Below are positions 8,409-25,884 of a stretch of DNA of 64,000 bases, one piece after another. How positions within the stretch are numbered: position 1 is the stretch's first letter; the number at the start of each line of letters is the position of its first letter. The notes beneath the pieces were generated by a model. That model had not been told where the DNA came from. It saw only the letters and a list, made by a program, of their open reading frames with translations, and did not search any database. This DNA comes from Bacillus multifaciens (lineage in GTDB: Bacteria > Bacillota > Bacilli > Bacillales > Bacillaceae_G), in contig NZ_JAVBXD010000009.1 of the NCBI RefSeq assembly GCF_030756675.1, positions 60,047-124,046 of the forward strand, given 5' to 3'. A program made the position numbers and the translations under genes.

Positions 8409-11171
8409 ATGCGAGGATGGAAACTGCTTGGAAAAGAGTTTGCTACGATTATCAAAAGCAAAAAAATCTTAATTCCAATTATTGCGGTCTTATTTATTCC
8501 AGTATTGTACGCTGGTATGTTTCTATGGGCGTTTTGGGATCCATATGATCAATTAGACGATCTACCAGTTGCAGTTGTAAACCTTGATGAAGGTGTAGTG
8601 TATAACGGAAAACCGATTGAAGCCGGTAAAGAACTTGTTAAGAACTTGAAAGAAAAAGAAGGCTTCAAATGGGAGTTTGTCAGCGAGAAAACAGCAAAAA
8701 AAGGAATGGATGATCGAAAATATTACATGACGATTCGCATTCCAAGTGACTTCTCGAAAAATACAACAACATTGTTGGATGCAAACCCGAAAAAATCAAA
8801 ACTAGAGTACATTCCAAATGAAAGCTTAAACTTCTTATCCTCACAAATCGGTGGATCAGCCATTGAAAAAATTAAAGGCGAAGTAGCAGCTTCCGTAACA
8901 AAAACATATGCGGAGACAATGTTTGATTCGTTAAAGGATGTATCGAAAGGCTTTGCTGATGCGAGTGATGGAGCTGGTCAGCTACATGATGGATCAGGGA
9001 AAATCACAAATGGCTTAGGTGAATTATCTGGGAAAGCTAATGATGGATTGAATAAGTTAGCAACTGGTTCTGGTGAACTGACAGGCGGCTTAGGTCAGTT
9101 AATAGATTCAAAAGGAAAATTCCAAAATGGATTGGGTCAATTAGCAACTGGTTCTAATCAAATTACAAATGGCTTAGGCGAGTTAAATAGTAAAGTAAGT
9201 GGCATGCCAGGTGGGGTGAATCAGTTATTGAATGGTTCACAACAAATTACAGGTGGTTTAGGTCAATTTGTAGATCCAAAAGGTGAATTACAATCGAATT
9301 TAGGCAAGTTATTGAGTGGCTCACAACAAGTCACAGGTGTTTTAGGGAAATTAACAAGCGGTTCTCAGCAAATTGCGGGGGGCTTAGGTCAGTTAGTAGA
9401 TCCAAAAGGAGACTTCCAGCTGGGGCTTAATACTCTTTCTGGAGGTTCTAAGAAGGTAGCAAATGGTCTTGGTCAACTTCAAGGTGGTCAAGAAAAATTA
9501 GCTGCTGGAGCAACAGAAGTACAAAAAGGTATTCAGGGCACAAATGATGGTTTGAAAAAATCGTTAGCCGGTGTAACGGATATGCAAAGTAAGTTACCTG
9601 AGCTAACAAAAGGGTCTGAGCAAATAAGTGGTATTGCTCAGAAAACTGCAGGAGGGGCTAAAGAAGTTGCGGACGGCTTAGCGCAGTTACAACAGCAAAT
9701 CAATGGATTACCAGAGGAATATAAACAAAAATTGGCACCAACTGTTCAAAAACTTGTCGAGGGTAGTGAAGGCGTTGCAACTGGTACGGAACAAGTTGCT
9801 GGTGGTACAAAAGCTATTCATGAGAAACAAGTTTTATTACAAGATGGTGTTGGTGCATTGAAAGATGGTCAACAACAGCTTGTAAAAGGTACAAATAAAT
9901 TAGTAGAAGGACAGCAAGCATTTGTAGCAAACTTCCAAACTTTCGGTGATAAATTAAAAGAAGCAACAACTGGTATAAGTACTATAAGTGATGGTTTAGG
10001 TCAACTCTCTACTAAAACAACAACTGGCTTGGATCAGTTATCTGCTGGAGCAAATCAAGTAGCGGATGTTTTAGGTAAGGTGGAGAATGGATCAGGACAG
10101 GTTACAGGAGGAATAGGCCAGTTAGTAGATTCAAAAGGAAAATTCCAAACAGGTTTAAATCAATTGGCAAATGGATCAGGGCAAATCACAGGCGGTCTAA
10201 ACGAACTAGCAAGCAGTGCAGGCCCACTAGCAAACGGAGTAAATGCTTTATATGCGGGCTCACAACAAGTCACAGGCGGTTTAGGTCAATTTGTAGATCC
10301 AAAAGGAGAATTACAAACGAATTTAGGTAAGTTATTAAATGGATCACAACAAATAACAGGTGGCCTAGGACAATTCGTAGATCCAAAAGGAGATTTCCAA
10401 AGTGGGCTAACTAGTTTAAAAGACGGTTCTGGAAAAATCACAGACGGATCCAAAGAACTAGCAACAAAACTTGGCGAAGGTGCTGAGAAAACAAGCGAAA
10501 CAAAAGGCGACGAGAATAAATATGATATGTTCGCGAGTCCGGTGAAAGTGAAAACTGAGAAAGTATCAGAAGTTCCAAACTACGGAACAGGCTTTACACC
10601 GTACTTCTTATCTCTTGGTTTATTCGTTGGGGCATTGTTATTATCTATTGTGTTCCCATTACGCGAAACAGTTGGTATACCGAAATCAGGGTTTAGCTGG
10701 TTTATTAGTAAGTTTGGTGTACTACTTGCAGTTGGTATCATTCAAGCACTTGTGGCAGACGCAGTCTTACTGTTCTGGTTAGGTGTTGAAGTGCAAAGTG
10801 TTCCATACTTCATATTGTTTAGTATTATTACAAGCTTATCGTTTATTGCGTTAGTTCAATTTTTAGTAACGACTTTCGGCGATGCAGGACGCTTTGTTGC
10901 GATCTTGACATTGATTTTACAATTAACAACAAGTGCAGGTACATTCCCACTTGAGTTAATTCCGAAACCGCTGCAAATCTTTAACGCATGGTTCCCAATG
11001 ACATATTCTGTATCAGGATTTAAAGCAGTTATTTCAAGTGGAGACTTCAGTTACATGTGGCAAAACGGAGGTATTTTAATGCTCTTCATTGTTCTGTTAT
11101 CACTAGGAACGATTGGTACATTAACTTGGATGCATAAGCGTCAATATGGGAAATTTACGGAAGCGGAATAA
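8409..11171 (+). CDS. YhgE/Pip-family membrane protein with long repeat region
   Basis: 920 residues from ATG 8409 behind GGAGGG. One membrane helix at ~20-42, a long extracellular part, then about five helices at ~735-905. The C-terminal membrane part resembles ABC-2-type permeases. The centre (~180-690) is built of dozens of imperfect units of about 7-14 residues, such as NGLGQL, GSQQITGGLGQ and FVDPKGELQ, which should form long helical or coiled-coil stalks. Family members include YhgE and phage infection protein Pip; YueB is a related phage receptor and type VII secretion component. Nucleotide repeats of 60-100 bases recur inside (for example around 9230-9300 and 10250-10330), so repeat number may vary between strains. 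Function here is unproven; phage receptor and envelope export are the main options. Confidence 0.85.
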   Translation: MRGWKLLGKEFATIIKSKKILIPIIAVLFIPVLYAGMFLWAFWDPYDQLDDLPVAVVNLDEGVVYNGKPIEAGKELVKNLKEKEGFKWEFVSEKTAKKGMDDRKYYMTIRIPSDFSKNTTTLLDANPKKSKLEYIPNESLNFLSSQIGGSAIEKIKGEVAASVTKTYAETMFDSLKDVSKGFADASDGAGQLHDGSGKITNGLGELSGKANDGLNKLATGSGELTGGLGQLIDSKGKFQNGLGQLATGSNQITNGLGELNSKVSGMPGGVNQLLNGSQQITGGLGQFVDPKGELQSNLGKLLSGSQQVTGVLGKLTSGSQQIAGGLGQLVDPKGDFQLGLNTLSGGSKKVANGLGQLQGGQEKLAAGATEVQKGIQGTNDGLKKSLAGVTDMQSKLPELTKGSEQISGIAQKTAGGAKEVADGLAQLQQQINGLPEEYKQKLAPTVQKLVEGSEGVATGTEQVAGGTKAIHEKQVLLQDGVGALKDGQQQLVKGTNKLVEGQQAFVANFQTFGDKLKEATTGISTISDGLGQLSTKTTTGLDQLSAGANQVADVLGKVENGSGQVTGGIGQLVDSKGKFQTGLNQLANGSGQITGGLNELASSAGPLANGVNALYAGSQQVTGGLGQFVDPKGELQTNLGKLLNGSQQITGGLGQFVDPKGDFQSGLTSLKDGSGKITDGSKELATKLGEGAEKTSETKGDENKYDMFASPVKVKTEKVSEVPNYGTGFTPYFLSLGLFVGALLLSIVFPLRETVGIPKSGFSWFISKFGVLLAVGIIQALVADAVLLFWLGVEVQSVPYFILFSIITSLSFIALVQFLVTTFGDAGRFVAILTLILQLTTSAGTFPLELIPKPLQIFNAWFPMTYSVSGFKAVISSGDFSYMWQNGGILMLFIVLLSLGTIGTLTWMHKRQYGKFTEAE

Positions 11172-23493: not shown

Positions 23494-24004
23494 GCTTTTT
23501 TCCTCCATAATTTTTTTATTTGAACAAGAAGACAAGTATGTTTCTAATGAAAATACCTTTTTCATGCTCACGCCTTAAGCTTTCTCTTCTCTTCCCCCTA
23601 CTCTCTATGCAAGAAATAAAATAAATACTAAAAATGCTGCTAAAATCCTCGGTGTTTCCCCCTTCCTTAACAATATTTATAGCTATTTCTAATTTTGTCA
23701 TAAATACACTATTTTTTCTATATTAAGGAAATTGTATTTTTGTGAATTTTCAATTTGTAATTACTACTAATATAACTTTGAAATAATACCATTAACCTTT
23801 ATAAACGAACAAAAGAAAAGAGCGTGTTTTGAAAAAGGTTAATCAAAACACGCTCTCCTTTTTTTATTTCTATTTTATCTATTCAATTTAATAATCAATT
23901 AGTACTTTCTTCTTCATGTACAGAAACGGAGCAGTTTAGGTGAAGAAGGATTTTTGGGAACGAGAACGAATCATTTACATAATCCTTAGAATGAGGTGGT
24001 TACA
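23494..24004. other. Gene-free stretch before grpB remnant
   Basis: No coding frame I can support. It holds a strong hairpin (GAGCGTGTTTTGA / TCAAAACACGCTC, 23820-23855) with a T7 tail on the plus strand, a probable terminator, but no plus-strand gene precedes it. Confidence 0.5.
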
Positions 24005-24156
24005 ATGAAATAAGATTAGAAGCATATACAGTTGATTGGCAGAAAGAGTTTCATAGGGTGAAACAGGATATTCTAAATTCAACACCTATTCAGGAAAATC
24101 GAATTGAACATATTGGAAGCACAGTTATTAAAGATATGGTTGCCAAACCAATATTG
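24005..24156 (+). pseudogene. GrpB-family gene, 5' fragment
   Basis: Starts ATG 24005 (GAGGTGG site) and would read RLEAYTVDWQKEF ... NRIEHIGSTVIKDMVAKPIL, the N-terminal block of GrpB/UPF0157 proteins. One A is missing in the ATGAAA run, so the frame is already broken after codon 2. It stops exactly at PIL, where the 1.27-kb segment 24157-25427 is inserted; the gene resumes at 25428. Confidence 0.85.
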
Positions 24157-24164
24157 TGTGCAGA

Positions 24165-24182
24165 GATAATAAAGTTGTTTAA
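24165..24182 (+). repeat. Left inverted repeat of cassette
   Basis: GATAATAAAGTTGTTTAA, 18/18 inverse match to 25403-25420, 8 bases inside the junction. Confidence 0.8.
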
Positions 24183-24433
24183 AAATCCTTCTTCCACTAA
24201 CGGTGCAGGTTAGCTCAATAAGGAATCAAAATAAGAGAACTTGTAAGCTTCTGAAGAGGTGGACAAAAGAAAGGTTTAAAATATAAAGTAGACTATGTTA
24301 TACAGATATAGAGAGATATTATAATTAATTTGTGGTAAGTTATGAATAGTTTGATTTATTTTAACTAGGTAGAAGAATATAAAATGTATGTGATTTTTTG
24401 CAAATCCCATACGTCTTATTCTATGGAGGAAAT

Positions 24434-25138
24434 ATGCTTAAAGACAATTTTAAAATTAGTAATATTCCCGCAGTTTTATGGGGAGAAAAGAGTGAAAAAA
24501 TTTTTATTGCAGTACATGGAAATATGTCAAATAAAGAAGATGCAGTGATTCAAATATTAGCTGAAGAAGCCAATCAAAAAGGTTATCAAGTATTAAGCTT
24601 TGATTTACCTGAGCATGGAGAAAGAAAAAATGATAATACTCCTTGTAAAGTACAGTTTTGTGTTAGTGAATTATCTATAATTATGAATTACGCAAAAGAA
24701 CATTGGAAAGAAGTAAGCGTGTTTGCATGTAGTATGGGAGCTTATTTTAGCCTTTTAGCTTATCAAAATGATGTGCTAAAAAAGGCATTATTTTTATCAC
24801 CGGTATTTAATATGGAACGAATTATCGAAAATATAATGAAATGGTTTAATGTAACACCAGAGCTTTTGCAAAAAGAAATGACTATAGAAACACCTATTGG
24901 TCAAAAGTTATATTGGGATTATTTATGCTATGTAAAAGAACATCCTATTAATACATGGAATACAGATACATATATTATGTATGGAGCCAAGGATGAACTA
25001 TGCGAATTTGAAACTATTAACTATTTTACAAAAAAACACAGTTGTGAATTAGAAGTCATGGAAGCAGGTGAACATTACTTTCATACTGAAGAACAGTTGA
25101 AAGTATTTGAGCAGTGGTTACACAAGCACATCGATTAA
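24434..25138 (+). CDS. Alpha/beta hydrolase (passenger gene of cassette)
   Basis: 234 residues from ATG 24434 behind GGAGGAAAT. Alpha/beta-hydrolase fold: IAVHGNMSNKED near the N-terminus (oxyanion side), nucleophile in ACSMGAYFS (first Gly of GxSxG replaced by Ala), Asp in MYGAKDELCEF and His in GEHYFH near the end. No signal peptide, so cytoplasmic. Substrate unknown. Codon use is more AT-rich than the neighbouring operons, fitting recent arrival with the cassette. Confidence 0.85.
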   Translation: MLKDNFKISNIPAVLWGEKSEKIFIAVHGNMSNKEDAVIQILAEEANQKGYQVLSFDLPEHGERKNDNTPCKVQFCVSELSIIMNYAKEHWKEVSVFACSMGAYFSLLAYQNDVLKKALFLSPVFNMERIIENIMKWFNVTPELLQKEMTIETPIGQKLYWDYLCYVKEHPINTWNTDTYIMYGAKDELCEFETINYFTKKHSCELEVMEAGEHYFHTEEQLKVFEQWLHKHID

Positions 25139-25346
25139 CAAATTACAATTTATCTAAGAGATTTAGTGAAGAGCCTGTTAGAGAAGAATTGTGAATATAT
25201 AAACTGATATTATATTTGAGAGGAATTATAAATGTGAATTTATTCACTTAAACAAACAGGTGCTTTAGTTCAATAAGAATTAAACTACTTTATTAATGAT
25301 TTTTAAGTACAAATACCTTTTAAATGTATAGAAATTAAACAACTTT

Positions 25347-25390
25347 AAAGAGCCTTACTACACACTAGATTGTAGCAAGGCTCTTATATT
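25347..25390 (+). terminator. Terminator inside cassette, after hydrolase
   Basis: AAGAGCCTT-CTAC / GTAG-AAGGCTCTT stem followed by ATATTTT. Confidence 0.7.
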
Positions 25391-25402
25391 TTCATAACAA
25401 AA

Positions 25403-25420
25403 TTAAACAACTTTATTATC
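25403..25420 (-). repeat. Right inverted repeat of cassette
   Basis: TTAAACAACTTTATTATC, exact reverse complement of 24165-24182. Confidence 0.8.
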
Positions 25421-25427
25421 GATTTAC

Positions 25428-25598
25428 ATATTGGATTTTGTCGTGGGTGTAGATGATATTGAAAATGTTGATAATGCTATTTTTCAGGGGCTAAAGGAGG
25501 CAGGCTTTTTAAGACTTCAGATTCAACGTCCTAATGAAATCGTGCTTTCCAAGTTTACTGATGAAACCCACGAAGAAAAGACTCACTTTATTCATTAA
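25428..25598 (+). pseudogene. GrpB-family gene, middle fragment
   Basis: Reads ILDFVVGVDDIENVDNAI and on to DETHEEKTHFIH and a TAA. Joined to the 5' fragment it restores the family block AKPILD-VVGV. The usual C-terminal FRDYL block is missing, so the 3' end is lost as well. Confidence 0.82.
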
Positions 25599-25602
25599 TA
25601 AC

Positions 25603-25884
25603 TTATAGTCTAACCTTAACCTCAGTACCGTCCTTAGCTTTGACATCTACTAGCACGATCCCCTTATAATTTTTCAGTTCCTTGACGATAGGCTTTAGCG
25701 TTTTTTTGTCTATTAGTGGAAAGGTAAAGTCCAGGTTTTTTCTTTCGAAGTGCTCTTTTGTCCATTTGTTTGCATTTTGCTGAAAAAATTTTGAAGTCAA
25801 AATTGAAATAACAATGTTTAAAATAGCATATGGGATTGGGATGGTAAACCGAACATCTTTTGCTTTCACTTTTACATGCATCAT
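25603..25884 (-). CDS. Small conserved protein of DUF2089 cluster
   Basis: 93 residues from ATG 25884, 10 bases after the upstream stop; no clear ribosome site, so coupling is likely. One hydrophobic stretch (IPIPYAILNIVISIL), then a charged domain ending in VDVKAKDGTEVKVRL. Family not recognised. Its ending echoes the end of the upstream protein (AKDGTEVKV versus ANGDTVAVI), so the two may share a small domain. Position suggests a joint role with the two genes before it. Confidence 0.65.
   Translation of the reverse strand: MMHVKVKAKDVRFTIPIPYAILNIVISILTSKFFQQNANKWTKEHFERKNLDFTFPLIDKKTLKPIVKELKNYKGIVLVDVKAKDGTEVKVRL

Follow-up and report, generated by a model that had tools for sequence, protein, structure and literature searches.

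The 1,272-bp insert that interrupts a grpB gene in the DNA analyzed here is very probably a natural, non-autonomous mini-Tn7, a single cargo gene that would have been moved in trans by a matching clade of TnsB. It occupies 24157..25428 (+) of the window, by which we mean the whole 64,000-nucleotide stretch of Bacillus multifaciens DNA under study. In favor of this reading we count the TGT/ACA boundaries with a duplicated TATTG, the empty sites of relatives, the existence of other elements that have these ends around differing cargo, and tnsB-bearing elements that have the same repeat.

The insert begins with TGTGCAGAGATAATAAAGTTGTTTAA, and its final bases are the reverse complement of TGTAAATCGATAATAAAGTTGTTTAA, giving TGT...ACA termini, and copies of TATTG stand in the flanking sequence at 24152..24156 and 25429..25433. 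The target duplication of Tn7 is likewise 5 bp. An earlier note had seen ATATTG at both junctions; five of these bases are duplicated, but the extra A at the right junction is part of the ACA end. Its report of a split GrpB gene holds up, since the whole grpB genes of relatives align with both the 5′ part (24006..24156, +) and the 3′ part (25429..25598, +); the two score 23.8 and 18.9 bits against Pfam GrpB, below the gathering cut-off of 25.5. The gene has a second lesion besides the insertion: its 3′ part ends early, after THFIH, where relatives continue. An Rfam search of 23,900-25,700 returned zero matches at E<=1. A phage origin was considered and rejected, the insert having no match in phage records and the 31-bp left-end pattern no exact match in viral contigs.

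The uninterrupted allele that the earlier note had predicted exists in relatives. When the two window flanks were used as separate queries, they fell adjacent to one another within a 175-aa grpB at three loci (L129, L130, and L131), with an overlap of 5-6 bp, as predicted from a 5-bp duplication. The empty site reads CCAATATTGGATTT in L130 and L131 and differs by one base in L129; at about 80% identity to the window, these loci represent relatives of other species.

The perfect 18-bp inverted repeat noticed previously, 8 bp inside each end, is present at 24165-24182 and 25403-25420. Allowing up to three mismatches, the 64 kb contains three matches to it (two with none, and one with three at 25280), against a mean of 0.35 in shuffled sequence; two further inner copies in the right end, absent from the earlier note, start at about 25280 and 25335. 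A repeat search resolves the right end, on the reverse strand, into three AATAAAGTTGTTTAA-like, TnsB-type repeats with a spacing of 55 and 68 bp: an innermost (25278..25302), a middle (25332..25349), and an outermost repeat that includes the ACA end (25403..25428). A hairpin between the two outer repeats (25348..25385, +) was not called by a terminator scan. The left end (24157..24182, +) has one such repeat, whereas intact relatives have three, about 20 bp apart. It equals the canonical left end minus 40 bp between two identical 17-bp repeats, so its single site fits a deletion between those repeats, and this shortening may have left the window copy stranded or immobile.

Tn7-like elements are recognized by several TnsB-type repeats at each end in an unequal layout, by TGT...ACA termini with a 5-bp duplication, and by genes for TnsB and its partners. 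The family described below has the first of these, with the window's left end at one site, and the window element has the second; TnsB and its partners are not encoded, the hydrolase being the sole long ORF, and the element is therefore filed as a non-autonomous derivative. In the accessible text of a survey of Tn7-like elements, Tn7 has three sites in its left end and four in its right, and the median distance between the boundary and the outermost TnsB site is 12 bp (PMC8649781). An insertion cassette of the IS231 type, or an element derived from some other IS family, might be proposed instead, as non-autonomous mobile insertion cassettes with passenger genes have been described, in the literature available to us, for the B. 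cereus group. The end repeats and layout nonetheless match Tn7-like elements with tnsB. On that likeness, rather than on a comparison with IS231 ends, the IS231 reading was set aside, and we give it next to no credence.

As the earlier note stated, the insert contains no transposase; its single long ORF (24434..25138, +) encodes a 234-aa alpha/beta hydrolase (Pfam Hydrolase_4). The ribosome site ascribed to this gene is present as GGAGG before the ATG at 24434, but the terminator ascribed to it was not called by the scan. Homologs with 82-96% protein identity occur in records of Clostridia, Lysinibacillus, and Paenibacillus. The Lysinibacillus copy is 97% identical at the DNA level to 24284-25138, and element ends are not near it; a Cytobacillus solani plasmid has the hydrolase gene together with the right end, at 91%, and the left end is absent.

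The search for the repeat elsewhere, which the earlier note had proposed, was productive: the same ends enclose differing passengers. BLAST searches of plasmids placed them around other genes in Cytobacillus, Bacillus arachidis, Priestia, Niallia, and other records. Across 261 genomes of the order around a Lysinibacillus genome (E<=0.001), a right-end match was found in 71, with at least 140 of the 169 columns covered in 19 by reading of the rows by eye; many of the shorter matches may be just hairpin or terminal repeats. The 26-bp left end, at up to three mismatches, occurred in 10 of 398 genomes of a class-level sample, with zero for the reversed-pattern control among the matches listed. At 10 loci, leaving out one weak partial pair (L043), profile searches recovered a right end together with a left end that scored well. 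Perfect 5-bp duplications bound seven of the ten: TATTG in the window, TCTGA in L069, CATGG in L071, CATAT in L076, TATCT in L081, TTTGC in L003, and TTTAG in L036. These seven elements are about 0.8-3 kb long, and one of them (L003) lies on plasmid pBO1 of Cytobacillus oceanisediminis. Family cargo includes hydrolases, a beta-lactamase-family protein, a relative of CAAX proteases accompanied by a LytTR protein, and products that match nothing in Pfam; among end pairs that lack a duplication, the cargo includes a cadmium transporter and a MarR regulator. Three end pairs (L002, L039, and L078) have no perfect 5-bp duplication, and 21 of 28 right ends checked, some of them incomplete, could not be paired with a left end to give a perfect duplication. 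A separate record, L004 (CP079755, Klebsiella grimontii pNY3A), combines the left end of a mini-element with a hairpin resembling H3, beside SMI1/KNR4 and AbrB-type neighbors; although labeled Klebsiella, it may be a misnamed Bacillales plasmid.

Within the window element, two hairpins sit just inside the TnsB-type sites, before and after the cargo: H3 (24192..24218, +), with five mismatches to the array consensus, and H1 (25251..25277, +), with two mismatches to its pattern. Each is the only match in the 64 kb, with zero for the reversed controls. A loose scan of 11 mini-elements found both hairpins, ordered and placed as expected, in eight (the window, L069, L071, L003, L036, L002, L078, and L039, the downstream hairpin of L071 being scored as H3), against 0-2 matches for each reversed-motif control. 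L076 has the downstream hairpin only, L081 has only H3 in the expected place, and neither is clear in L128.

Because unequal, multi-site ends follow the Tn7-like plan, TnsB was sought in genomes with these ends, and 11 of the 24 searched had a Mu-transpos_C match. Seven Tn7-like loci (L089, L091, L092, L093, L095, L097, and L098) lie directly downstream of a gene that we take to be glmS from its N-terminus, MCGIVGY. Their end repeats have a common core near AATAAAG and mostly differ in the second half, a variation that is perhaps a TnsB recognition code; the second half seen in the mini-elements is found in one of them, in G061. All the other TnsB loci first drawn from right-end-positive genomes were set aside for want of clustered matching repeats. 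A TnsB search of the 261 genomes yielded four further close relatives of the G061 protein (59-62% identity), the rest reaching at most 49% among the matches listed. The TnsBs of matching elements are 61-62% identical to that of G061, compared with at most 49% for those without these sites; the TnsB of G138 is 59% identical, and its contig is too short for the ends to be assessed.

The elements of G061, L172, L173, and L174 are 14.2-15.5 kb long, carry a cluster of the mini-element repeat at each end, and are bounded by perfect 5-bp duplications (TGTGT, AAGCG, AATTC, and AACCC, respectively) where the mini-element geometry predicts them. L-end spacing in these four is 66 and 54-55 bp, compared with 68 and 55 in the window; the middle L-end site of L173 and L174 has three mismatches, and L173 has TGA rather than TGT at one end. 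Mini-element profiles match the four elements' ends, by matching end type, with E-values from 1.4e-7 to 0.0016. Weaker profile matches in L090, L094, L099, L101, and L175 are partial or consist of hairpin parts. Clustered sites were absent from the other 15 of the 19 Tn7-like stretches, some of which have scattered single sites, and the reversed motif formed zero clusters in all 19. Pfam identified TnsA, a Mu-type TnsB, TnsC, TniQ/TnsD, and TnsE in three of the four matching elements (L097, L172, and L173), with the TniQ and TnsD parts of L097 on separate ORFs; inspection of the ORFs of L174 revealed no TnsE-sized ORF beside tnsD. The elements of G061 and L173 are sited at glmS, and L172 and L174 are elsewhere. 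A matching TnsB was found in three of the 71 right-end-positive genomes. In one of these, G162, the right-end match is the transposon's own end, and G061 has the partner element along with three candidate right-end places elsewhere. No TnsB match was found in the order of G302 (five genomes).

This distribution bears on whether such elements are instead decayed full Tn7-like transposons, shortened where they stand by internal deletions, without ever having moved in the short form. The absence of a matching TnsB from most right-end-positive genomes, and of two sites from the window's left end, would suit decay. Short elements with differing cargo, however, each have both ends and a duplication of their own, and the H3-gene-H1 layout of eight mini-elements is not that of the four full elements, which lack H3 and H1 save for one weak internal H1-like match in L172. 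We therefore consider decay in place quite improbable. Against the mini-Tn7 reading itself we count the rarity of a matching TnsB, the 21 right ends and three end pairs without a duplication, the TGA terminus of L173, and the missing TnsE-sized ORF of L174.

Under the mini-Tn7 reading, one cargo gene lies between two ends readable by TnsB, which would be acted upon in trans by TnsAB together with TnsC. TnsAB of the matching clade, driven by TnsC, would move the mini-elements by cut-and-paste. The target selector would more likely be TnsE than TnsD, since TnsE is encoded by three partners and mini-elements lie at scattered places, plasmids among them. According to the available text of PMC8649781, TnsE directs integration into replicating DNA. 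Among 26 hand-picked right-end matches, 11 were dropped because the contig start lacked a DnaA motif, and 12 of the remaining 15 are oriented with replication (p 0.035); this bias fits TnsE targeting and, equally, an ordinary gene-direction bias, and is not used as evidence. The earlier note had proposed that the element is non-autonomous and that an enzyme elsewhere moves it, and the empty sites, the family with the same ends, and the candidate partners sharing end repeats all favor that proposal. The enzyme it left unnamed is one that the evidence points to as Tn7-like TnsAB. The earlier inference is right in outline, with the insert as one of a probable mini-Tn7 family in Bacillota.

The larger lead is nonetheless the arrays in which the same hairpins occur. 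H1 was found in 113 of 261 genomes, with up to 163 copies in one, and the reversed pattern in none. In G160 and G263, eight stretches of 17-20 kb (L200-L207, in G160:C1 and G263:C15) each contain 15-30 sites, with a reversed control of zero, and read gene, H1, spacer, H3, gene, with nearly all sites on one strand and single genes between them. The H3-H1 spacer of about 140 bp seen in L203 at about 9342-9481 is repeated many times across H1-rich genomes. The arrays of G160 cluster around mid-chromosome and switch strand there: 46 of the 47 H1 copies are no more than 0.7 Mb away from it (33% expected). With the strand switch placed at 2.04 Mb, a post hoc choice, 42 of 47 run with replication, compared with 34 of 47 at the exact midpoint. 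When the sites were folded as single strands for comparison with attC, 13 of 33 had at least six arm-arm pairs.

Duplicated blocks in the arrays tend to end at hairpins. In a set of 58 end points, whose rows are not independent, 18 fall at a hairpin (8.2% expected) and 29 within 30 bp of one (18% expected). This set includes a repeated 1.8-kb segment of G160 (L201:9018-10868, with copies in L202 and L205 at 97-99% identity), which is probably an insertion sequence and in several cases has a hairpin at or near one side. For eight gene blocks of at least 94% identity, in G160 or other genomes, 10 of 16 end points lie within 10 bp of a hairpin (7.8% expected); these blocks were picked among the matches listed, with the recombinase unit, one spacer repeat, and rows of lower identity set aside. 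Dispersed repeats undergoing homologous recombination may instead account for the arrays and for this enrichment.

The arrays contain a 279-aa tyrosine recombinase, antiparallel to them, whose gene lies in or near arrays at L203:7632-8471, L200:16069-16908, and L221:18573-19412. It scores 223.8 against XerA_Arch (cut-off 220) and 89.5 bits against the integron integrase model TIGR02249 (cut-off 265), and so falls outside the IntI that defines an integron. With fragments and stop-containing copies counted, a homolog of at least 80% identity is present in 23 of the 27 genomes that have 10 or more H1 copies and in 17 of the 234 others (Fisher p 2e-18, kinship ignored); the H1-rich genomes without one are G079, G137, G144, and G154. 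A Sporosarcina psychrophila plasmid has a homolog at 94.6%, and a shorter one, at 73.9%, occurs on the Cytobacillus solani plasmid that also has the window's hydrolase. The recombinase unit, about 1.0 kb long and delimited by H1 and H3, is itself repeated, and H1-spacer-H3 could be a small mobile repeat of which this unit is the autonomous form.

It could be argued from this association that the window insert is itself a gene cassette put in by a tyrosine recombinase at H1/H3 hairpins, with incidental Tn7-like repeats: its cargo is framed by H3 and H1 as in the arrays, and a recombinase gene accompanies many hairpins. The boundaries and the 5-bp duplication, however, lie outside the hairpins, at Tn7-type termini, which makes this very unlikely, and the mini-Tn7 reading remains the preferred one for the insert. 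For the arrays, we give slightly less than an even chance to an undescribed cassette system in Bacillota, in which H3/H1-framed genes would be shuffled by the XerA-like recombinase and H3-gene-H1 units carried by mini-Tn7s to plasmids and new chromosomal sites.

Laboratory mini-Tn7 vectors place two Tn7 ends around a passenger and receive the transposition proteins in trans; the window family has the same plan, but is natural and has many passengers. Besides the 5-bp duplication of Tn7, the mini-element has in common with Tn7 and Tn7-like elements, as the accessible text of PMC8649781 presents them, TnsB-type repeat arrays at unequal ends and cargo. It differs in the absence of tns genes and in size, at about 0.8-3 kb for the seven elements with duplications compared with the medians of 14-29 kb given there by a tnsB-based survey. 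Surveys of that kind would be blind to elements without tnsB. Mobile insertion cassettes and MITE-like elements (for MITEs, the available text of PMC7043111) are likewise non-autonomous, keep their ends, and may hold passenger genes; the mini-element differs from them in its Tn7-type ends and in one or a few whole genes per unit. In the mainly open-access literature at hand, including the accessible portions of PMC8649781, PMC7043111, PMC11406308, PMC10293859, and PMC8725734, we found no natural mini-Tn7, nor, among the papers listed for cassette systems, a report of an H1/H3-type one in Bacillales. Many orphan gene carriers may depend on a single Tn7-like clade, and the second half of the TnsB repeat may act as lock and key, making cross-mobilization predictable from sequence.

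The arrays invite comparison with integron cassettes. Both have single genes in one direction, palindromic intergenic sites of about 90-115 bp, and a tyrosine recombinase in the array; they differ in that the array recombinase is XerA-like, not IntI. If the arrays are indeed a cassette system, common bacteria would engage in an integron-like trading of genes that has seemingly gone unnoticed until now, and the proposed system, with its pickup by mini-Tn7s, would naturally parallel the integron carried within Tn7.
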